Below, one piece after another: positions 595 through 22,258 of a stretch of DNA of 22,258 nucleotides (positions are counted from its first letter, which is position 1; the number at the start of each line of letters is the position of its first letter). The notes below the pieces were generated by a model. It ran no database searches, was not told the DNA's origin, and saw nothing but the letters and a program-made list of their open reading frames with translations. Source of the stretch: Chromera velia (taxonomy: Eukaryota > Sar > Chromeraceae); NCBI GenBank assembly GCA_018398765.1, contig JAHBMJ010002131.1, positions 1-22,258 on the forward strand, in the 5' to 3' direction. The translations under genes and the position numbers were made by a program.

Positions 595-2356
595 ATGTCT
601 ATGTTCACGAGTGCTCGCAGGATCGCACACAAGAAAGAGTCTGGAAGCTTGACGTCAGAATCGTCGAGCGAAATTGAGAATTGCGGTGTCAGGTTGATGG
701 AGAAATTCTGTTTTCTCTGTCTGTAAATATTCCTCCGGCAAGGAAAAAACACAGGCACTCACTCAGGTTTGCTCGTATCCCGCTTTTGAAACGCGGTTCT
801 CGCTTTTGAGAAGACCAAACGAGTTCGCAAGGGGACTGTTCGGTCAAGGGTTCCTCTTGCAAGACGAAAGAATGTGGTTTACCTCAGTGTGTGTTTCTTT
901 CTTCTCTTTGTATCTTTCATTGCCACCCAGAACCTCCAGAGTTCGATGAACGGGGTGATGAGGTATGTCTCCCTTGCGGTACTCTATTTGACCTTCGCTG
1001 TGGTCTCTCTGTTTTCCCCAGGCATTGTGAACGGTCTCAGCAAGTCCACACTCGCGGAGGGGGCACACGATTGTGTATGGTGGTCGGCGTCCTCCCATAC
1101 GTTGCGGTGATGTTTGCAAACATGAATAATCACGTGTATGAATATTTGATGATTCCCCTGAATTTTGGTGTGGGAATTGGTGCTGCGATCATTTGGACAG
1201 CACAAGGGAGCTACGTCGGTTTGTGTGCCATTCACGACGCAGCAGATGAGGTTGCTGCGAGAGGGGAAGATGGAGGAGAGGGAGATGTAACGCCAACAGG
1301 GAGGGGAAGTGCGGGAGTTGTGGAAGAAGAGAACCAGCTTGTTCTTCCTCATTTGGAATCTGCGATTGTGTCTAACGGGGATGGCCCAGAGGGGTGCAAG
1401 AGGGAAGCACAACAGGGTGATCTTCTGCAAGATCCACCGCCTGTGTCCGCTGCGCTTCGTGATGAAGATGACGATGAAATTCAGAGGGTCGGGACAGTAA
1501 AGGAAGTCCAGCCGGAGGGATACGATTTCCTTGACTACATGGGCAGGTTCGAGAGCAGCGCCACCGATTTTGGCGCTTTTGCGTCGTCTCCGATGGCCAC
1601 TTCTCCCGCTCGTGTGACTGACTCAGCAATGAGCGGGGCCTCTCCCCGAGACTCCTCAGGCGGCGGGGACAAGGTTGAACTCGACAGATGCAGCGAACAG
1701 AAGGACGACGTCGGGAGTGACGTCATCTGAAATATCCCAAGTCTCAAGAACATTAGAGGGGGAGCAGCAGGGAGGTACTGCTGCGTGGTATGGTGCCCGT
1801 GTGAAGCCGCAGAGGGGAAGGGCGTCGAGCCAGAACACAGAAGGATTGCCTCCGAGAGGGTTGAAGGACTCGAGAAGACTTGTGGGGAGAGTCGGTGGAG
1901 GGCAGAGACGGGGGAGAAGGGGGGAGGGGGGAGATGAAGAGACAGGTCAAACAAATGGGACAGACGGGCAACAGGGGGGCAGGGGGGGCTCTGCAGGAGA
2001 GAGGATGTCCTCGTCCTCTCTGACCCACCAAGGTCCCTTGAAATCAGCAGCTTGTTTGACTTCGCACTACAACGGGGTGTTCTTTCTGATTTTTCAGTTT
2101 CCCGGGACAGCAGGTTGGTCATGGCCACAGTGCTGATGAAGTACGTGTCAAGTGGGGAACAGGGTCACGCACCTGATCCTGATAGGTGGAAGCTGAAGTT
2201 TTTCGGCATCTACGGAGGCATAGCAGCCTTCTTGTTGTTTCTCTTTGCGTGCGTCAGGGAGAACGTCCACAAGCTCAGTCAGTTCTTTCTTTCTTTCTTT
2301 CTTTCTGTCTTTCTTTCTTTCTTTTTTTTTTGCTCTCTTTCTTCCTCTCTTTCTTC

Positions 2357-2610: not shown

Positions 2611-5600
2611 TCATTCATTCATTCATTCTGTCTTTGCTTGTTTGTTTCGATTTCTTCTTTCCTTCTTTCTTTCTCACTCGCTCTTTTTCGCTCGCTCTCT
2701 CTCGTTCATGAATGATTCACGAAAATCCACAGGCTTAGTGAATTGGGTAGATTGAGAAAAAAACAAAAAAAGAAACAGAATACAAAGGAAGGAGAGAAGA
2801 GAAGGCGCAAAAAAACAAACCCCATACGCACTGGAAACATGCATTTTGTCCCTCCGCTCAACTGCGAAATTCAACAGAGACTTTGTTTCAATTTTCGCTT
2901 AGACACTCACTTTTGAGTCAGACCGATAGTAAACGATTGATTGCGTGTCTTTCCTTCCGTTTTGCAGGCGTCTCGATGCACAACATGCCGGTGCATGGCC
3001 CTGACTGCCAAACAGACCTTCCTGTTAGTCTTGTTTGGTTCAAAGTTTCTGTCCCCTCTCACTTAGTTTTCTCTTATGTTTTTACAGGGTTTTCGCCTCT
3101 CTGCTTCTCTTCAAGACAAGAAGAAATGATACTCTGTGTATCTTTTTCTTCTTCTCGCCCGGTCATATCTTCCTTCCTTTTCGGTTGCTTCCTCTCTCCG
3201 CTTTTTGGCTTCTGCGTCCTTCTGTTTTCCCCTATCGACGTCCCTGCATGGCACCTTGCTTGTGAATTTTTCGTTCGGCCACCCCGTCTCTTTTTTTCTC
3301 TTGCTCTTCATCTACCGTAGAACCCCCCTCTGGTGTTTGACTCTCTGGCCGATCACTGCCTGACCCTTCTCTCGTCTTGTCGGCAGGCTCTTCCAAAAGG
3401 ACAAGCGCATGGCCATGCTGATTCCTCTCCTGTTTGTGAACGGTTGGGTGTTGGGTTTCTTCACTGGAAACGTCGGAGTGTTCGTCTCGAGAAGGCTCGG
3501 AGACGAGTGGATGGGAGCAGTGGGGGCCGCATTCTATGCCACCAACTCCGCGGCCTCGCGGCTTTATGTCAGTCTCTCTCCCTCCCTTCCCCTCCCTCCC
3601 TCCCTCCCTCTCTATCTATCTATCTCTCTCTGTGTGTGTGTGTGTGTGTGTATGTGTCCGTGTCAGTGTGCTTGACAGAGAGAGTGGGTATCTCAGTTTC
3701 TAATTGGCAGGGAGGAAGGTGTCTTGCCGTCCTCTCCGTGCAAAGTGTGGGTGGGTCTGCTGTCTTGGAGCCGATCGTCTTTCCATCCGTCTCGCTTTTC
3801 TCTTCTCTCGAGTAATCCCTTCGGTTCCGATTTCTCCTCTCTACATGTTCGCTTTATGTGCTTCCAACACATTTCTGTCGATGCCTGCTTTGATCCTGTG
3901 TGCCTGTGTGTCCCTTCGACAAAGCAGAAGCGTGCCTGTCCTTCGTCCTCCCCCCCCCTGAGAACTTCTACCTGATTGACCAGAAGGAGGTCAGTGAAGT
4001 TTTGTTGGTTGACTGACTGCAGAGACACAAACCCACTCCAGGCAGGGCACATGTTCCAGCGGTTGGAAGACTGTGTTATTGCATGTCGAAAACGATGAAT
4101 GAATATGAAGTGTGCAATCAACCAATCAGTCAATCGAGCTGTCTAAGGGTTAAGTAGGCAGTCAGCAAAAAACTCGAACGGGGGGAAAAGAAGCGAAAGA
4201 GGTGCATGCTGCAACTGTGACTTCAGCACACTCTTAGGAATTCAAAGTGGAAAGAAGACACAGAAAGTCGCACTACACAAACAACACAAGAACAAAAGAA
4301 CCGAAGCGGATCTCCATCTGATCGTCTGAACGTAGGCTGAATTGGATTCAGTCGATCGCCTCTATTGACATGACGCACACCATTCAAGCAGAAACTTCTA
4401 CCTGTGTGAGACAGATGAGTCCCCGTGTCCTCTTCCTGTCTTTGCCATCGAGCGCCCGCATTTGTTTTTCTTTCTTGTTGGGGTCCCTCATGTCCCTTCA
4501 AATCAGCGTCAAAAGGGCAGGTGAGTCGTGCACCGTCGCTGATTCGCTTCCCCTTTTGTGCATGACACATGATGAGTGCAGGTCAGAATTCCTGGAGAGA
4601 GCGAAGGGAAAGAGCTTGACCTCTTCTCCGAGTGAGTTTTTGGATTTGTTTTCTCTCTCTCTCTCTCTCTGTCTGTCTGTCTGTCTGTGTCTGTCTGTGT
4701 CTGTCTGTGTCTGTCTGTCTGTCTCTCTGCCTCTTTGGCTCCTTCCCTGTACACCCTCTGGATTTCTTTTCCTTTCGGTCCATCTGTCTGTTGTTGGCCT
4801 TTTCTGTTGCTTGAAACCTTCTCTGATCAGAGTTTTGATGGATGAAAGGATTCGAAAAAAAATCTTCAAGCGCATCCTCTGTCTGCCTCCTCGGATCCGT
4901 TTACTTTGCTTTGCTCTGCAAATCCCTCCTTCAGTCGGTTTTGGAATACTTTTATCAACCAGCCCGGACATGCACAGATGATAAATTTGCATGAGTCCCG
5001 ACATGCACAGATGATAAATTTGCATGAGTCCCTCGTGAAAAGAACCAAATCGTTTTGTTCTCTTTCCTGTCTGTCTCCTTTCTTCTTCTTTCCTCATGCA
5101 GTCCGGTTCCTCACGGGACATCCTTCTCAATCAGGTGCCAATCGGAAGTCGCAACCTCCCTCATTGAACCTCAACAGGTGAAAGGGGGGGGGGGGAAGAA
5201 GGGGAAGGGCATGGGCGGGGCTTTCACTTCAATCGGGATGACACTTCTCTCTCTCTCTCTCTCCCTCCCGCCTCCTTCCTTCTTCTCTCTCTCCCTTCCC
5301 CCCCCCACCTCTCGCTCTCTCAGTGTGGTGGAGGAAGTGGCTGTCTGTCTTTGTATGATGTCCAACGTATGTAGATGATCTTCTTTCTGCATGATCATTA
5401 GGACCCTTTCTACCTTCAGGCACGTCTCATGCCCTCTCCTTCTTTCTCTGCATCAATCTTCCCGCAGAAAGGAGACGAGGTGGTCGACTTCGTTCAGTGC
5501 AGATCCGGTCTTTTCTCTGCACAGCATCTGACCTGCATGCAGAAGTGAGTGAGTCAGTCAGTGAGTGTGTGATTGAGTGTGTCGTGTGGACAGGCAGGCT

Positions 5601-8600
5601 GGCCTCAATCTTGTTGTGTTCCTGGGCTTCGCTTTGACCTTGCTCTCCCCTTACCTTCGCAATTTTCACTTATTTTTTGGCTCCATTTTGACAGCTTGAT
5701 CCTCACCACCTTTCACTTTTTCCAGGGTTTTACTCTCATTTACTCTTTGACTCATGGACCCCAAATGTGTGTGTATACACCAAAATGATACAGAGTGACC
5801 ATCTTTGCATGTGTGTGATAAGACATACATGCACATGCACATGTGTTCTCTTCGTCCTCTCCTCATGCAGGTGTCCCCCCCCTGATCTGGGTCCTGAGTT
5901 TGCCCCCAGTGGTTTTTCTGAGGGGCAGACCATGGGGTGTCCTTCGAGGTTCAGTGCAGAGGGGGGTACTCGGCTGTACCGGTCAGTCAGTCAGTCAGTT
6001 GGTCTGTCTGTCAGTCAGTCAGTCAGTCAGTCAGTTGGCTTGTCAGCTTGTCTGTAGGTCTCAGTGTCTGAGTCAGGCCTGTCGAGCCAAGGCCATCCAG
6101 CCATGAAATCCCCATGCAGAATTTCTCCTCCATCAATGAATGAACGGTTAACCAAACACTCCATCCAACAAATTTCAGATAAGATAAAATTTCTTTACGA
6201 AATCTTAGCTCGTCGTGCACCCTAATCACTAAGTTTTCCCCCCCTTCCGTGCCTCCCTTCGACCGTCCTCCCCCCCTTCTTTCTCTCTCTCTTGGTTCTT
6301 CACAGAGTGATCCAGAAGGGCGCACCTCCCTCTGCATCAACGGAACGTGGACGGAGAGCGACCTGAAGTGCTACAGTCAGTGGAGGGGACTCACTATCTT
6401 GGTCCTTCATTTAATCACCGCTCTTTTCTTTTTAGGTCTACAGTCAGTGGAGGGGACTCACTATCTTGGTCCTTCATTGAATCACCGCTCTTTTCTTTTT
6501 AGGTCTACAGTCAGTGGAGGGGACTCACTATCTTGGTCCTTCATTTAATCACCGCTCTTTTCTTTTTAGGTCTACAGTCAGTGGAGGGGACTCACTATCT
6601 TGGTCCTTCATTTAATCACCGCTCTTTTCTTTTTAGGTCTACAGTCAGTGGAGGGGACTCACTATCTTGGTCCTTCATTTAATCACCGCTCTTTTCTTTT
6701 TAGGTCTACAGTCAGTGGAGGGGACTCACTATCTTGGTCCTTCATTTAATCACCGCTCTTTTCTTTTTAGGTCTACAGTCAGTGGAGGGGACTCACTATC
6801 TTGGTCCTTCATTTAATCACCGCTCTTTTCTTTTTAGGTCTACAGTCAGTGGAGGGGACTCACTATCTTGGTCCTTCATTTAATCACCGCTCTTTTCTTT
6901 TTAGGTCTACAGTCAGTGGAGGGGACTCACTATCTTGGTCCTTCATTTAATCACCGCTCTTTTCTTTTTAGGTCTACAGTCAGTGGAGGGGACTCACTAT
7001 CTTGGTCCTTCATTTAATCACCGCTCTTTTCTTTTTAGGTCTACAGTCAGTGGAGGGGACTCACTATCTTGGTCCTTCATTTAATCACCGCTCTTTTCTT
7101 TTTAGGTCTACAGTCAGTGGAGGGGACTCACTATCTTGGTCCTTCATTTAATCACCGCTCTTTTCTTTTTAGGTCTACAGTCAGTGGAGGGGACTCACTA
7201 TCTTGGTCCTTCATTTAATCACCGCTCTTTTCTTTTTAGGTCTACAGTCAGTGGAGGGGACTCACTATCTTGGTCCTTCATTTAATCACCGCTCTTTTCT
7301 TTTTAGGTCTACAGTCAGTGGAGGGGACTCACTATCTTGGTCCTTCATTTAATCACCGCTCTTTTCTTTTTAGGTCTACAGTCAGTGGAGGGGACTCACT
7401 ATCTTGGTCCTTCATTTAATCACCGCTCTTTTCTTTTTAGGTCTACAGTCAGTGGAGGGGACTCACTATCTTGGTCCTTCATTTAATCACCGCTCTTTTC
7501 TTTTTAGGTCTACAGTCAGTGGAGGGGACTCACTATCTTGGTCCTTCATTTAATCACCGCTCTTTTCTTTTTAGGTCTACAGTCAGTGGAGGGGACTCAC
7601 TATCTTGGTCCTTCATTTAATCACCGCTCTTTTCTTTTTAGGTCTACAGTCAGTGGAGGGGACTCACTATCTTGGTCCTTCATTTAATCACCGCTCTTTT
7701 CTTTTTAGGTCTACAGTCAGTGGAGGGGACTCACTATCTTGGTCCTTCATTTAATCACCGCTCTTTTCTTTTTAGGTCTACAGTCAGTGGAGGGGACTCA
7801 CTATCTTGGTCCTTCATTTAATCACCGCTCTTTTCTTTTTAGGTCTACAGTCAGTGGAGGGGACTCACTATCTTGGTCCTTCATTTAATCACCGCTCTTT
7901 TCTTTTTAGGTCTACAGTCAGTGGAGGGGACTCACTATCTTGGTCCTTCATTTAATCACCGCTTTTTTCTTTTTGGGTCTACAGTCAGTGGAGTGGACGC
8001 ACTGTCTTGGTCCTTCATTTAATCACCGCTCTTTTCTTTTTGGGTCTTTCTGTTTCTCATGAAGAAGAAAAAGGTTTTACGGATTGAAAACACACCTGCA
8101 AGACAAGAGACCAGCTTCTTTCATTCAATTTCGTTGCTCCATCTCCCGATGCCCCTTCCGTCCTTCCTACGTGCATCCCTGCTTTCCCTCCACAAGCAGC
8201 TTGCTCCGTTGTCCTTTGGCGTTCTTATCAATATATGCCTCCTCCATTTGTATGCCACAATGCAGGGGTACCTGATCTTTAAGAACTGTGCTGGCAGGTT
8301 CTCTGTGCTGCTGTTCGCGTCTGTGGTCCAAATTATAGCGGTCCTCTCGCGCTGTCTCATCCGATTCGCTTTTCCTGAAAACTTTCGGTGGGAAGATGCG
8401 AGCAGCTCATGGGAAGAGGTCGGTTGCTTTCTTCGTTCTTCACTTGTTTTATTTTGGTTTGACTTTCTCTCCTTCCTCGGTGCCACCTGCCACTTAGATC
8501 CTCCATGAGTCTCCGCACTCCTCCTCCTGTCTCTGCTCTCTTGTTCATAGAATGATCAGCTGCTTTCGAGTTGAAGCATGGACGGTGACTGCCTGGGTTG

Positions 8601-15618: not shown

Positions 15619-17084
15619 GTGCCTGAAGGAATGTCTGCGTTTTGTTTGGGTTTCTCCAAGAAACAGAAGACAAAGAAGAGAGTGCGTTTTGCACAGGAGG
15701 TTGAAGTGAGAGAGTTCTCACAGGACGATATCGTGCAGAGGAGAGCACAGAAAGGAAAACAGATAGCTAGAGCAGCAAGAAAAGAGGAGAGAGACAGAGA
15801 AAGAGAGGCTGAGCCGGGCTTAGCAACCCAGAAGTCGCCACAAGAAAGAGAAGAGGAGAAAAAGAAGAAACTCAGAGAGAAAAGAAAAGTGAAAGAGGCA
15901 GAGTTCAGAGAGTGATAGTGAGAGAAGAGGTGATTAAGAAAATGATGAGTCATGTGAATCCAAGAAAGGATCACATCGACGCAATGGAAGAAGAAGTGAG
16001 GAATAGAAGCCATGACGAGGCAATGAGAAACGAATTGAAAAGTTTCTCTGACAATAAAGTGCTAAAGGTTAACGGAGTGAGAATGCTGCAGAAAAGAAGA
16101 GCCATGAAGACCAGATGGGTGCTTACATGGAAAATGAAAGGAGGGAAGAGAGTACCCAAACCGAGGTTGGTGTGCAAAGAATTTTAGGATGACAAGAAGA
16201 ATGTAGAGACATTTAGTGGGACTGTATCCTGGTGGGCTGTTTTGTTTTACTTTGTGTTCGCGGCAGGAAAAAAGTGGTCGGTCGGAAAGTCAGACGTGCG
16301 TACTACATTTTTGACTGCACCGATAAATGATGAGGTGTATGTGCAGCTGCCTAAGTATGTTCCGACGGGGTCACCCGAAAGCGTCGTCCCCGGTTAGTTC
16401 TATCAGTTAGAGAGAGCAATGTATGGTCTGAAGGATGCACTGCGTCTCTATGGCCAGCATTTTAAGAAAATAGCGAGAGAGGAAGGATGGGAGGAAGTGA
16501 TGGAGTCTGTGTTTGTTTTGTACGAAGATAAAGACAAGAAGAAAGAAGCGAAAGCAGTGATGGTTGCGCATGTTGACGATCTTTTAATTTTCTTTGCTGA
16601 TCCCTTGAGTGACTTTGCATCCATCAGAAAGAGACTGCAAATGGACGAGCCAGAGATTTTTGTCGAGGGAGGAGAGATGGGGTACACTGGTTTGGAAGTA
16701 AAGAAGAATGGAGATGAGTTTGTCTTGTCTCAGGAAGGGTACCTGTCTTCTATCCCTGTTGAGAAAGAGAGCATGCCGAGAAAGAATTTGTCTTTCAATC
16801 TGTTGGCAAAAGAAGAAGAGAAAGATGAATCTCTCGTAACGGTTGCAGTGGTGCAGAAGGTGATAGGCATTCTTGGTTGAGTGTGCAGGACTTTTTCTGA
16901 TTTGGCTTTCTTGTTTTCTGAGCTGTCGAGGTACAATTCGTGCCCGACTGGTGCGAAGTTGACTGCTGCCCCGCTTGCCTTTGTGAAAGCAAAAGAGAAA
17001 GGAGAAACATTGAAAATGAATTCCGTGAATGATCCGAAGATCGTTTTGTTTGTTGATGCAGCGTATTTGCTTTTCGTAATATAG
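15619..17084 (+). pseudogene. Ty1/copia reverse transcriptase remnant
   Basis: The first ORF (15619-15915) is a charged linker containing KKRVRFAQEVEVREFS. After one frame change the RT follows in the frame of 15912. Motifs are a Lys/Asn-rich NELKSFSDNKV, RWVLTWKMKGGKRVPKPRLV, KSDVRTTFLTAPI, YVQLP, AMYGLKDALRLYGQHF, the catalytic HVDDLLIF (usual YVDDLLI), and YTGLEVKK. IGILG-stop-VCRTFSDLAF is the usual W..RTRPDL. In-frame stops lie at 16185 (TAG), 16395 (TAG) and 16878 (TGA); RNase H is truncated after FVDAAY and a TAG at 17082. The element is non-coding now. The stop at 16878 replaces the conserved Trp, and that at 16185 falls where the family has KGF.Q. The integrase and gag portions are missing or scattered upstream. 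Confidence 0.85.
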
Positions 17085-17538
17085 TGAGGCGAGCCACGGG
17101 ACCGGCCAATCCCGGGGTGAGCCGAACTAATGCGCACCGCCGCCGCACGGGACGCACGCAGCTCAGAGACCAACATGCACATGCACGCAGGCTCATGAAG
17201 GCACCGCCATGCCAGTCTGTATTAGAAGAGAATTAAATAAAATAGAAATAAAATGGAATTAATTCAATTAGCTGCGTATAGCCTGGATTGAGTAAACAAC
17301 AGTTGCTTGCAAAGCTTCTAGAAGTAGTTTGGAAGTGAACCTTGAACTGACAGACTTTCCGTAGTAGAGATCTAACTGAACTAAGTGCGATCACTTAGGA
17401 GAAGAGGAGTTACCTCCTTACGTGGTAGCACAGAGCCTAGTTGATCTCTCCAGGACCTCTGTTGCTCGGTTTGATCTTGTAACAGTCATCTTCTTTCTTG
17501 GCAAGTGAATTCTTTTCTTCTCTCAAGACTCTCTCTCG
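17085..17538 (+). other. Possible LTR and leader region of the gypsy element
   Basis: No coding sequence is seen between the copia remnant and the gag ATG. TGGTAGCA at 17423-17430, followed by CAGAG, resembles a primer-binding site complementary to the 3' end of an initiator-Met-type tRNA (TGGTAGCAGAG). If so, the 5' LTR would end just before 17423. The AT-rich part 17218-17280 might lie in the LTR. No second LTR copy is in the window, so the LTR limits cannot be set. Confidence 0.3.
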
Positions 17539-18486
17539 ATGGAGCAGGTTCTGCAACAATTGCTGGAGGGGCAGCAATTTATACAGCAGCAGATGATCCA
17601 GGTGCAGCAGACACAACAACTTCAGCAACAACAGATGGACGCTCTGGGAGCACAGCAGCAACAAACAGCTACCGACGGGGGCCTAATCCATCAACAGCAG
17701 CAGCAGACACCAGAACAGCAGCAGCAGCAGCAGCAGCGGATGAATCAACAGCCGACTTCTCCACCTCCCCAGTGGTCGAACTTCAAGGCGAAAGAGCCGC
17801 CAGTGTTTCATGGGGACCGGAAGTTGCTCAAAGGTTGGGTCACGGATATGAGGGAATATATACAGCTCTCCGATATTCAGGTATCGAAGCAGTTAGGGTC
17901 TGTGTATCAGTACTTCTCCCGATTCCTCAAACAATGGTATGACAAGACGCAGAGGTCCGCCTCTCCTTTTGTCAACGTAGAAGATCTCTTCACCTGTCTG
18001 TCTGAGCGTTTCCCCGACTCAAACAAACAGATAGACTTGAGAGGGGAAGTCCGGAACGTCCATTGTCAGGGCAATGAGGGGGTTCACAAGTACTCTGTCC
18101 GATTCAACGATATTGCAGAAGGAATCGTTGATGTAAGTGAGATCGATTTGATGTATGACTACATTCGGGGCCTTCTGGATGAGGTGAGGAAGGAAGTGAG
18201 GAGGAGGAAGCCTGACAGTCTTGATGCTGTGATGAAGGATGCAGAGGAGGCCAAGCAGCTGTTGAGTGGGGGGAGAAAGAAAGACTACAGGGGCCAGAGC
18301 AGAGACAGGCGAAGTGATTCGCACCCGCCTTTGCGACCTCAGTCCCAATCGAACGATGGGCCCGTCCCGATGGATCTCAACCGAATCTCCCAAATTTATT
18401 CCCTTTCCCAAGATGAGATCAAGAGGCACATTTAGGAGAATAGGTGCTTCAATTGTCACGCGGTGGGACACTCTGCACGCCAGTGT
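17539..18486 (+). pseudogene. gag: gypsy gag with polyglutamine N-terminus and CCHC zinc knuckle
   Basis: The first 70 codons are a CAG/CAA-rich tract encoding Gln runs (interspersed LQQLQ, MDALG), unusual for gag and prone to repeat-length change. A capsid-like region follows (SNFKAKEPPVFHGDRKLLKG, YIQLSDIQ, FLKQWYDKTQ, LRGEVRNVHCQ, IRGLLDEVRKEV), the usual retrotransposon gag layout. After a TAG at 18433 the zinc knuckle CFNCHAVGHSARQC (C-x2-C-x4-H-x4-C) is intact at 18445-18486. Gag would assemble the particle and bind the RNA; this copy would end before the knuckle. Confidence 0.85.
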
Positions 18487-18789
18487 AGGAACCGCAAGCA
18501 GCAACAGCAACAACAGGGTCTTAGGGATCACGGGGGTCAGAGAAATTTCTACGGAGGTCAAGAATGCATGCACAACCTGCAGAGTGGGGTGCAGCAGCAC
18601 TACGGTGGTTTGGTGCAGGGGCAGTAGGGGAATCCAGTCATCCTGCAGGGGCTTACGCCTCCCCCTGGACTGTGCCCACCACCGCAGTTCCAGGGGAACC
18701 CTCCCCAGTGGTCACAGCGCCAGCAACAGAATGCACCCCCAAGAGGGATGTACTCCACGACTGGGGGCAGGACAGGCAGGAGGGGGAAA

Positions 18790-19335
18790 TTGATCACCTT
18801 CCATGGCACAGCGAATGGCATCCCGATCCGTGCCCTTTGAGATCCAGGGGCGGACTCCATTTATGTGAGCAAGAGAGTCGTTGAGGCCGGGGAGTTCCGT
18901 TTGTCCGCCTTGGAGCCCTCCACGTACAAAGGGGGCATCCGTCTCGATGGTGCGCAGGCTCCTTCGACTACTGTCTAATGGGAGGCGCCTGACATCGATC
19001 TGAAAATTCAGGACTTCGCAGCCCCCCTGACCATGACTGTACTCGATCTGGACAAAGATTATGATGTGGTCCTGGGGATGCTCTTCTGTGAGACCTTCAA
19101 ACCCCTTCCCGATTTCGAAGCGAAGTCTCTCTTCATAGCTGCAGATCGTTCTCCCTCCGGGTTGCAGTTCATACTGTATGACTCGGAAATCTACCATATT
19201 CTGGGGGCCGAGCCTGAGCCTCTGACCCGCAGAGAGATCCGTAGGCTTTTCAAGAAGGAATCTACCACCTTTCGGTGCTACCGTCTTGAGGTCCGCCCTC
19301 TTCCCTCCGTTTCCCCCCCCCTGGAGGTCAACTGA
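18790..19335 (+). pseudogene. gypsy aspartic protease and linker
   Basis: ITFHGTANGIPIRAL-stop-DPGADSIYVS has the retropepsin layout, with D-P-G at 18841-18849 in place of the usual D-S/T-G and a TGA directly before it. A further stop (TAA 18976) precedes KIQDFAAP and the second conserved segment DYDVVLGMLF. The linker ends at TGA 19333. The protease would process the polyprotein in an active relative; this one is broken. Confidence 0.65.
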
Positions 19336-19399
19336 ATCCAAGGAGCCACGACACAGAAGCCCCCGCCTCTCTCGTCTTTCCCGCCCGATCACCCGGTCA

Positions 19400-20830
19400 A
19401 TTCGGATGATTACACAGATTTCCGCAGGGAAGTGCAGGAGGAGGGAATGAGGCCAGGGATGAGAAAGGTTCTGGAGAAGCATTTCAGCATCTTCCCAAAT
19501 GAGATTCCCACCCTCCCGCCCAAGAGGGAAGTCGAGTGTCACATCAAACTCGAGCCAGGTCACCGCCCCCCTGCTCGAGCTCCGTATAGGCTCACCTACG
19601 GGCAGCTCGATGAGCTCCGAAAACAGTTGGAGTCATACTTAGCCAAGGGTCAGATCTGCCCTTCCAACTGCCCGTTTACTGCCCCTGTCCTTTTTGTTAT
19701 GAAGGCTGACGGCACTCAGCGTATGTGTATTGATTACACGCAGCTGAACAAGATCTGTGCGAGGGACAGATATCCCTTGCCGCATCTGGATGACTTGATT
19801 TCCCGTCTGCACAGGGCCAAGTACTTCTCGTCTCTCGACTTGAGACAGTACTTCCATTAGATCTGGGTAGCCAAGGGCGACGAGGAGAAGACTGCTTTCG
19901 TAACAAGGTACGGCACGTTTGAGTGGCTGGTCATGCCGTTTGGTTACTGCAATGCGCCTGGTATCAGCATGCGTATGATCAATAAGACATTGCGCCCCTT
20001 GTTAGACAGGTGTGTAATTGTTTTTATTGATGATCTTTTGATTTTCAGCCGCACTCCTGAGGAACATGAGAGAGACGTGGAGGCCGTCCTCTAGCTCCTT
20101 GCCGACGAGTCTCTCTATGTCAAACTGTCGAAGTGTGATTGGTTCCGAACGGAAGCCAAGTTTCTGGGGCTGGTCATCAGTGAGGGTGGATTCAGGCCTG
20201 CGTCTGAGAAGGTGCAGGGACTCCAAGACTTCCCCAAGCCGACCGACCGCACTTCACTGCGTCAGTTTTTGGGGTTAGGGAATTGGTTTCGGAAGTTTGT
20301 TAGGGGGTACAGCCAGGTTGCTTCTCCCTTTCTCTCTCTTCTCCGCACCTCAATCCCCTTTATGTGGGAGCCTGTGCATGATCAAGCATTCGTTGCTCTA
20401 AAGAAAGCCGTCCTTGAGCTTGCCACCCTTGCACTGCCTGACCCCAGTCAGCCTGTCTACATTGCACATGATGCCTCACAGTCGCATCAAGCCATCGGAG
20501 CAGTTGCCATTCAGCGCTGTCAGAAGACAGAGGCATACCGTCCGTTTGCCTTCGGCTCCCGCCGCCTGAACCCCACCGAGGCACGCTATCCAGTGCAGGA
20601 GTTAGAGCTGTTGGCGATTGTCCATTTTACGAAAGTTTGGCGTCATTTCCTGACGCCCGGGTCAGAGTTTTGGACAGATTACAAGAGTTTAGAGAATTTA
20701 AGGAAGTCGTTTGAGCACTGGAGTCTGCGTATGAGACGGTGGATTAAGTTTTTGGAGGAAGTGGTAGTTCCGATCAAATATATTCCGGGGAGGGCGAACA
20801 TCGTTGCCGACGCACTTTCTCGCAATCCGC
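19400..20830 (+). pseudogene. gypsy reverse transcriptase and RNase H
   Basis: RT motifs in order are KREVECHIKLEPGHRPPARA, YRLTYGQLDELRKQLESYLA, APVLFVMKADGTQRMCIDYT, LNKICARDRYPLPHLDDLI, FSSLDLRQYFH, TAFVTRYGTFEWLVMPFG and the catalytic IVFIDDLLIFS. Next come the C-terminal RT segment KFLGLVIS and [15 protein letters not shown]. RNase H follows with [32 protein letters not shown] (usual TDHKSL; the Tyr codon is TAC at 20680) and ADALSR. TAG stops lie at 19858 and 20092. The order and spacing are typical of Ty3/gypsy; RT and RNase H catalytic Asp residues are retained, so decay is by stops rather than loss of the core. Confidence 0.9.
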
Positions 20831-21239
20831 CCCCTTTGGTCCAGTCCTCCCCTTCTGCCCCTTTGCCATCTGTCACAGTGAGGCAACCCACCCCGCCGAC
20901 GGTCAGTCAGGCCGACGGTCCTGACAACGATGAGGTCCCAGGGCTTGAACCTGAGTATGCGGATGAGGGGGCAGTTGTTTGCGAGACCCGTTCTTTGGGG
21001 GGGGGGCACGGGGGCACTGAGCAGCATCAGTGCCAGACAACCTTGAAGGTTGAAGGAGATGTTGAACTGCAGAGGCGCTGCAGAGAGGAGTATGCAAACG
21101 ATTCCTGGTTTGCTCCGGTGCATGTTCACCTGAAGAATTCCCCAAACAAACTTCCCTCCCCTCATCTGGTGCCCCGTTTGAAAGGTCTCTCTCTGAGAGA
21201 TGGTTTATTGTTCCGAGGGGACCGCCTTTGTGTCCCTCG

Positions 21240-21945
21240 CTCACAGCGCACGGCTTTTATTCGGGAGAGCCACTCATCCCCTGAGAGTGCGTACTTCGGG
21301 GTTGGGAAAACCTACAGTCGAATGGCAGAGAGATACTTCTGGCCTCGGATGTGGAGAGATGTACGCAGATTCGTTCGTGCCTATGATCCCTGCCAGAGAA
21401 GGAAAGCTCCCAGCCGAGCACCACCCGGTCTCCTCCGACCGCTCCCTGTTCCCAACCACCCATAGGAAGTCATTCAAATTGATTTCCTCGTTGGACTGCC
21501 CGCCTCCGGGGATGAACAGTTTGACTGTCTTATGGTTGTCACTGACTCTCTGTTAAAAGGAGTATACCTGATCCGGACCCACACAACAGTAACAGCAGAG
21601 CAGGCAGGCCGGCTATATTATGAAAACGTCACAGTAAAGAAGGGGTGGCAGCGTACGATCCTCAGTGACAGAGACCCCCGTTTTCTGTCTCGATTCTAGC
21701 AGACCCTACACACCCTCTCAAGCACGCACCTGTCGTTCTCCACAACGGCACACCACGACACACCAAGGTCAGCAGAATGCATGAATCGAACAATCGACGA
21801 GGCCCTCCGTTGCCTCGTTGAGACCCAGCATCACCGATGGGCGGAATTCATCCCGTCCCTTGAGTTTGCATACAACACATCTGTCCATGTCAGGACAGGT
21901 CGCCCCCCCTTTCAGCTCGAGCACGGAAGAGAACCCCTCACGCAG
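21240..21945 (+). pseudogene. gypsy integrase, degenerate zinc finger, truncated C-terminus
   Basis: The HHCC region reads [16 protein letters not shown] then [13 protein letters not shown] and AYDPCQRRK. The first His and last Cys are present, but the second His (usual GHFG) is Tyr (TAC 21292) and the first Cys (usual CDxCQ) is Tyr (TAT 21382). The core has IQIDFLVGLP, VVTDSL, LSDRDPRFLSRF-stop-Q, then [20 protein letters not shown] (usual TDGQ.ER.N) and [20 protein letters not shown]. The DDE acidic residues look retained. TAG stops lie at 21463 and 21697. After HGREPLT the GPY/F-type C-terminus is missing and unrelated acidic sequence follows. Confidence 0.85.
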
Positions 21946-22258
21946 GAGGAGAAGGAAAAGTTTCGCGCCCTTGAGAGATGCGAAGGTGAGGAGCTGATCG
22001 ATGCTTCTGACCAGATCGATGGGCAAATCCTCTCCTGCGAGAAGGCTGGCTACGTTCCCCCCGAACCCGAGAAGAAGGAGGTCCTGGAGAACCTCATGAC
22101 CGACGATGAGTTCGAAGGAGTTGTCACCGCCGCTGCCCTCGCCCAGATCGTGATTTCTGCAATTGAGCAGAAGGCGGCAGAGGCGGAGGGCAAACCCGTC
22201 TCCCCCGAGGATGAGGATTCCAAGTTCGACTACGACAACCTCTCCTATGCCCTTCTGC
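21946..22258 (+). CDS. Acidic coding segment running off the end, possible host exon
   Basis: Directly after CCCCTCACGCAG (a good 3' splice-site sequence ending at 21945) the frame is open for 104 codons to the window end: [75 protein letters not shown]. It is rich in GAG/AAG/CTC/GCC codons, acidic and free of stops, unlike the element to its left. It has no integrase feature. Most likely it is an exon of a host gene into whose intron the element fell. It is also in frame with the integrase, so an element-encoded C-terminal domain is the alternative. No family is recognised. Confidence 0.45.

Follow-up and report, generated by a model that had tools for sequence, protein, structure and literature searches.

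Human introns that arose from tandem repeats were reportedly described by Zhuo et al. in 2007. Human cryptic sites activated by tandem repeats are also on record, in the accessible part of PMC2812944. In lancelets, minisatellite-like repeats known as mirages lie across the 5' or 3' exon/intron boundary with the splice site copied, and the available portions of PMC3087553 and PMC3902484 place them in Adh3, in the globin genes BflGb6 and BflGb9, in troponin C and in PGBD5. According to the same portions, mirage units, with reported sizes of 10-160 bp (PMC3087553), are homogenised within a cluster while edge units escape, and normal mRNA is still produced despite the mirages (PMC3087553, PMC3902484). 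Lancelet mirages and human tandem-repeat introns are the nearest reports that we found, and closer ones may be in print.

The window, that is, the whole stretch of Chromera velia DNA that was analysed (22,258 nucleotides), is one entire contig of a 177.8-Mb assembly. It carries a 67-bp minisatellite which we consider likely to be a junction minisatellite at the exon/intron boundary of a sushi-gene fragment that was inserted in a host intron, and to be excised together with that host intron. As in a mirage, the unit covers an exon/intron boundary (exon end CTACA plus the donor at 6376), its 67 bp falls within the 10-160 bp given in the accessible part of PMC3087553, and the 3' edge units 24 and 25 have diverged while 22 units are identical, the 5' edge unit not having diverged. 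In the lancelet reports, as far as they are available, the boundary is that of a functioning gene, whereas here it is that of a fragment inside the intron of another gene; likewise, the copy number is about 25 here against 6 and 3 in BflGb6. The human tandem-repeat introns resemble the array in that the units provide a GT and an AG able to make the units introns, although transcripts are the evidence in the accessible accounts of the human cases, while here the evidence is DNA and the context is contrary. With introns that come from tandem duplication of coding sequence, the array shares an AG and a GT adjoining within the unit (TTTTTAG/GTCTACA/GTCAGT); in those introns, however, the source was coding sequence that is now spliced as introns.

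Structure of the array and its copy number

6371-8047, plus strand: 67-bp minisatellite, 25 copies (TRF, unit-by-unit comparison and assembly search)
6376-6381, plus strand: phase-1 donor GTCAGT (5' splice site) at the end of the sushi exon, repeated in each unit (same donor place in 13 of 17 sushi loci)
6434-6435, plus strand: first of 23 acceptor-like AG dinucleotides (within TTTTTAG of units 1-23; units 24 and 25 have GG there)

TRF on the window returned a period of 67, 25.0 copies and 99% matches at 6371-8047, which bears out the initial annotation of a 67-bp minisatellite with 25 copies, placed by it at 6369-8043. Each unit is made up of CTACA (the final 5 nt of the sushi exon), the GTCAGT donor and the remainder of the 67 bp. 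In the register that starts at 6376, unit 1 and units 3-23 are identical and unit 2 has a single substitution; at the 3' end, unit 24 has two substitutions and unit 25 has four, after which new flanking sequence begins. Units 1-23 contain TTTTTAG, units 24 and 25 TTTTTGG. From the AG of unit 23, which ends at 7909, an open frame continues to a TAA at 8020-8022. The 7-nt series that would be strung together if the units were spliced is stop-free in every phase, just as the initial annotation had it.

With 22 of its 25 units identical, the array has a copy number that should not be trusted without long reads. An array length that is mostly a product of assembly, which is compatible with every other reading considered here, is nonetheless unlikely in our estimate. 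A short-read assembly would be unable to size an array with 22 identical units, and the published Chromera velia assembly was, in the accessible part of its description, a short-read assembly with a k-mer of 71 (PMC4501334), which is relevant only if it is the same assembly as the present one; against this, the diverged units 2, 24 and 25 lie near the ends and the flanks are clear on both sides. Searching all 4,040 contigs of the 177.8-Mb assembly retrieved the 67-bp unit at one locus only, a search that is no proof of rarity. The assembly also yielded 58 light-harvesting matches, as expected of a photosynthetic eukaryote, and one of these proteins had many relatives in PDB. Among 37 other loci (117,645 bases, overlaps included), TRF found no unit of at least 30 bp beyond 2.5 copies, and one 29-bp TTTC-type array had 8.8 copies. 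The predicted RNA fold of two units was no better than that of shuffled sequences (z 0.52; 140 of 200 shuffles were equally or more stable). Over the window, neither Rfam, at gathering thresholds, nor ARAGORN gave any match, and a promoter/terminator scan of 6300-6600 returned nothing, the models being bacterial and so uninformative for the array.

Sushi exons and the donor at 6376

5102-5177, plus strand: sushi exon A, a fragment, colinear with residues of C3080 from 1093, E 0.003 (limits by eye)
5468-5544, plus strand: sushi exon B, C3080 residues 1116-1142, E 0.023 (limits by eye)
5871-5981, plus strand: sushi exon C, matches in two frames, E 0.087, with a frame change near 5930 (limits by eye)
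6306-6375, plus strand: sushi exon D, 15 of 21 residues identical to C3080 residues 1185-1205, E 3e-06 (limits by eye)

On contig C3080, an open frame of 1,848 residues matches exons A-D colinearly at residues 1093-1205, and this frame is intron-free across the region that matches them. A peptide joined over exons C and D, and over the frame change in exon C, scored 25.6 bits with the Pfam Sushi model (PF00084) against a cut-off of 20.7. The first 14,000 window bases contained no downstream match to C3080 residues beyond 1205. Because the match to the paralog is partial (1093-1205 of 1,848), later residues are missing and exon C changes frame, the sushi exons are a gene fragment, probably broken.

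Exon D terminates as TGC TAC A at the donor. The sushi peptide search gave 44 matches, three of them in the window; 17 of the other 41 were read, on 13 contigs (nine plus-strand and eight minus-strand loci, not all independent). At 13 of these 17 loci a GT donor stands at the exactly matching place and phase, one nucleotide past the codon immediately after the last cysteine: seven are GTGAGT, three GTCAGT, and GTCAGC, GTCGGC and GTAAGT occur once each. The other four (L026, which is the closest paralog, L030, L031 and L044) have no donor there and the sequence reads through. GTCAGT is a usual donor in this genome, being the sequence at 3 of the 13 sushi-family donors and occurring as a candidate in 4 of 18 introns of CCT-type genes (one of them with an alternative). 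The donor at 6376 occupies the domain-end phase-1 splice site of the sushi family, whose introns are predicted from sequence; this position supports the earlier statement that the array starts at the donor of a sushi exon.

The same donor bears on a reading in which the unit is amplified coding DNA, with a membrane helix SQWRGLTILVLHLITALFFLGL continuing the sushi exon and T-rich codons mimicking the end of an intron; the resulting protein would stop in unit 3 at 6546. In its favour, the frame is open and of high hydropathy (170 of 20,000 shuffles were open and at least as hydrophobic), and both TTA and TTG encode Leu. Nevertheless, 13 of 17 relatives have a donor precisely where this reading requires coding sequence, 649 of the 12,658 plus-strand 19-residue stretches in the T-rich window, counting those of the array, reach that hydropathy, and the sequence beyond 8047 is host intron. 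On account of the family donor and the host-intron 3' flank, we rejected the coding membrane anchor as scarcely credible.

Two further observations concern sushi genes and donors in this genome. The 1,848-residue sushi frame (locus L046, on C3080) is intron-less as compared with domain-end donors in 13 of 17 loci, which may point to large-scale intron loss. Several introns here open with GTCA or GTGA runs, so that the 5' splice site heads a microsatellite; examples are found at 5982-6035 in the window and at several donors in L038, L071 and L073.

An insertion in the intron of a membrane-protein gene

3387-3567, plus strand: host exon of a multi-pass membrane protein, 85% identical to L077 over 54 amino acids (start by eye)
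3568-8265, plus strand: predicted host-gene intron, 4,698 nt, GTCAGT...GCAG, phase 0 (paralog comparison)
3893-8046, plus strand: 4.15-kb insertion with the sushi fragment and the array (flanks adjacent in C2958)
8266-8418, plus strand: following host exon, a membrane segment with 94% and 75% amino acid identity to C2958 and C3859, respectively

Two other contigs of the assembly, C2958 and C3859, carry relatives of exon 8266-8418. On contig C2958, three bases separate the counterparts of window 3663-3892 and 8047-8574 (76% and 80% identity); this contig ends about 20 bases past the left arm, and both host exons are visible only in L077. In the latter locus, on C3859, an intron of 310 nt, in phase 0 and with a matching donor and acceptor, separates the counterparts of 3387-3567 and 8266-8418. 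As the flanks adjoin in C2958 and the intron is short in C3859, the sushi fragment and the array constitute an insertion in a host intron, one that is absent in both paralog comparisons. The insertion measures 4,154 bases, and the host intron would be 544 nt without it. The right end of the array (8047) coincides with the right junction of the insertion, a junction blurred by T-rich sequence, while the left junction is placed to some tens of bases. By comparison with these paralogs, the 4.15-kb insertion sits within the larger predicted intron of a different gene, one for a membrane protein.

This context alters how the array is read. The initial annotation had noted that joining the first donor to the acceptor at 7909 would give a message reading through to the TAA at 8020. 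The frame is as described, but this is a mechanical property of it: the sequence past 8047 is host-gene intron and not the 3' end of the sushi gene itself. It had also listed transcription of the array only within a larger excised intron as refuting its own proposal; comparison with two paralogs places the array in a larger intron, and this would refute the proposal if transcripts show nothing else. It is likewise improbable, to about the degree given above for an assembly product, that the insertion amounts to an entire nested sushi gene, equipped with its own promoter and 3' end, whose last intron or 3' UTR would be the array. Such a gene would fit the four exons, which have good splice sites, and the open frame at 4415-4648, whose start is hydrophobic, but the best other assembly match of that frame has an E of 0.115, the sushi match is partial with respect to the paralog and has a frame change in exon C, and the right end of the array is the insertion junction. 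Exon 8266-8418 was considered as the sushi protein's own anchor and rejected, as the paralogs have that exon in the membrane-protein gene.

Scoring 40 of 171 candidates gave outside matches to the insertion in simple repeats only, and the part at 3893-4650 alone had no matches elsewhere. A mobile-element origin of the insertion was not favoured, since the outside matches among these 40 candidates are just simple repeats and there is no clear target duplication. The edges of the insertion (3885-3925 and 8034-8072) have a faint similarity to one host stretch, which could be what is left of a target duplication but is too weak to build on. The host protein, judged by eye, has the look of what we take to be the UNC-93 branch of the MFS; with the Pfam UNC-93 model it scored 11.4 bits, below the cut-off of 22.9, and the long frame of L077 gave no match to that model. 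The host gene copy at window 844-2282 is in two frames as against one uninterrupted frame in L077 (1044-2666), and its frame changes near 1032-1059 and 2019-2115 may be decay or assembly indels.

Intron-like signals in the unit

The initial annotation took each unit to hold a complete intron of 60 nt. For comparison, 23 neighbouring exon pairs from CCT-type genes were collected, of which five were dropped with 23 to 90 profile positions missing between the exons; the 18 kept are a small sample from conserved genes, and their introns are estimated at 115-912 nt. All 18 are thus at least 115 nt, and the 60-nt unit is about half the shortest and outside the range. When in-frame GT-AG pairs were enumerated, a CAG acceptor candidate was found in 15 of 18 introns (CAG alone in nine), GAG was the sole candidate in one and two had no GT-AG candidate; a TAG acceptor candidate was found in none of the 16 introns with in-frame GT-AG candidates. 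A 60-nt intron ending in TTTTTAG would be unusual in both length and acceptor in this genome, and the last two units lack the AG altogether, so the claim of a complete intron in each unit was not upheld. Units 24 and 25 do carry GG, as had been noted, but probably not through loss of AG: since the units beside the unique flank read TTTTTGG, the AG looks derived. It was probably derived and then amplified, with the flank-proximal GG ancestral by parsimony, which is not proof.

We regard as very doubtful the model in which all units function as 60-nt introns, each with a 7-nt micro-exon, and are spliced one at a time or in varying combinations. The donor type is genuine, 23 of 25 units have a pyrimidine tract and AG, and the 7-nt series contains no stop. 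When the circular unit was shuffled 20,000 times with its dinucleotides kept, the combined signals appeared in just 260 shuffles (1.3%) under a strict rule (a GTNAGT-type donor, then a pyrimidine-tract YAG 40-67 nt away) and in 2,880 (14%) under a looser donor rule, figures that overstate the rarity of the intron-like look because the rule was composed after the unit was seen. The length below all 18 sampled CCT introns, the TAG found in 0 of 16 and the position of the entire array within a larger host intron stand against this model, and lancelet mirages with duplicated splice sites, in the available portions of PMC3902484 and PMC3087553, leave normal splicing undisturbed. Splicing of array units is, in our judgment, possible but unlikely.

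Possible origin and fate of the array

A junction minisatellite excised with the host intron could have arisen as follows. A sushi-gene fragment with four exons and their introns would have been inserted, on the same strand, in an intron of the unrelated membrane-protein gene, the break in the fragment lying some 60 nt past the start of the intron that follows its last exon. At the right junction, a 67-bp piece comprising the last 5 nt of the exon, the 5' splice site and the intron stub may have been tandemly duplicated early and, more recently, expanded to about 25 copies via slippage or unequal exchange. Amplification of one variant with TTTTTAG, as against the flank-proximal TTTTTGG, would then have left 23 units that resemble a 60-nt intron. 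The array would be transcribed, if at all, within the 4.7-kb host intron and most likely removed with it, and single units would be weak decoy sites at most.

Counting against this explanation are the genuine use of GTCAGT as a donor type in this genome and the 23 GT...AG pairs of the array, which might allow some cryptic splicing, as well as the missing donor in 4 of 17 sushi loci, including the closest paralog. Conceivably, the array is an intron nursery, in which a real donor was multiplied, the AG came by one substitution and 23 new GT...AG units now lie in a transcribed intron; we consider this quite improbable, slightly less so than the micro-exon model. If true, it would lead to copy-number-dependent micro-exon or recursive splicing of the host transcript.

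As a junction minisatellite, the locus would be a clean example of the birth of a minisatellite at the junction of a gene-fragment insertion, in which the multiplication of one true donor makes an array resemble a train of introns. This emphasizes the caution to be exercised with GT...AG spacing within arrays, which is weak evidence of splicing, and the array provides a concrete locus for asking whether intronic copies of splice sites disturb splicing.

Other elements in the window

A remnant of a Copia-type reverse transcriptase was noticed at 16398-16877 (26.2 bits, below the Pfam cut-off of 31.6). The stretch at 17509-22258 resembles a Ty3-type retrotransposon, with a gag-like frame at 17509-18432 that scores below the cut-off and with RNase H and integrase zinc-binding domains above their cut-offs at 20095-21462.
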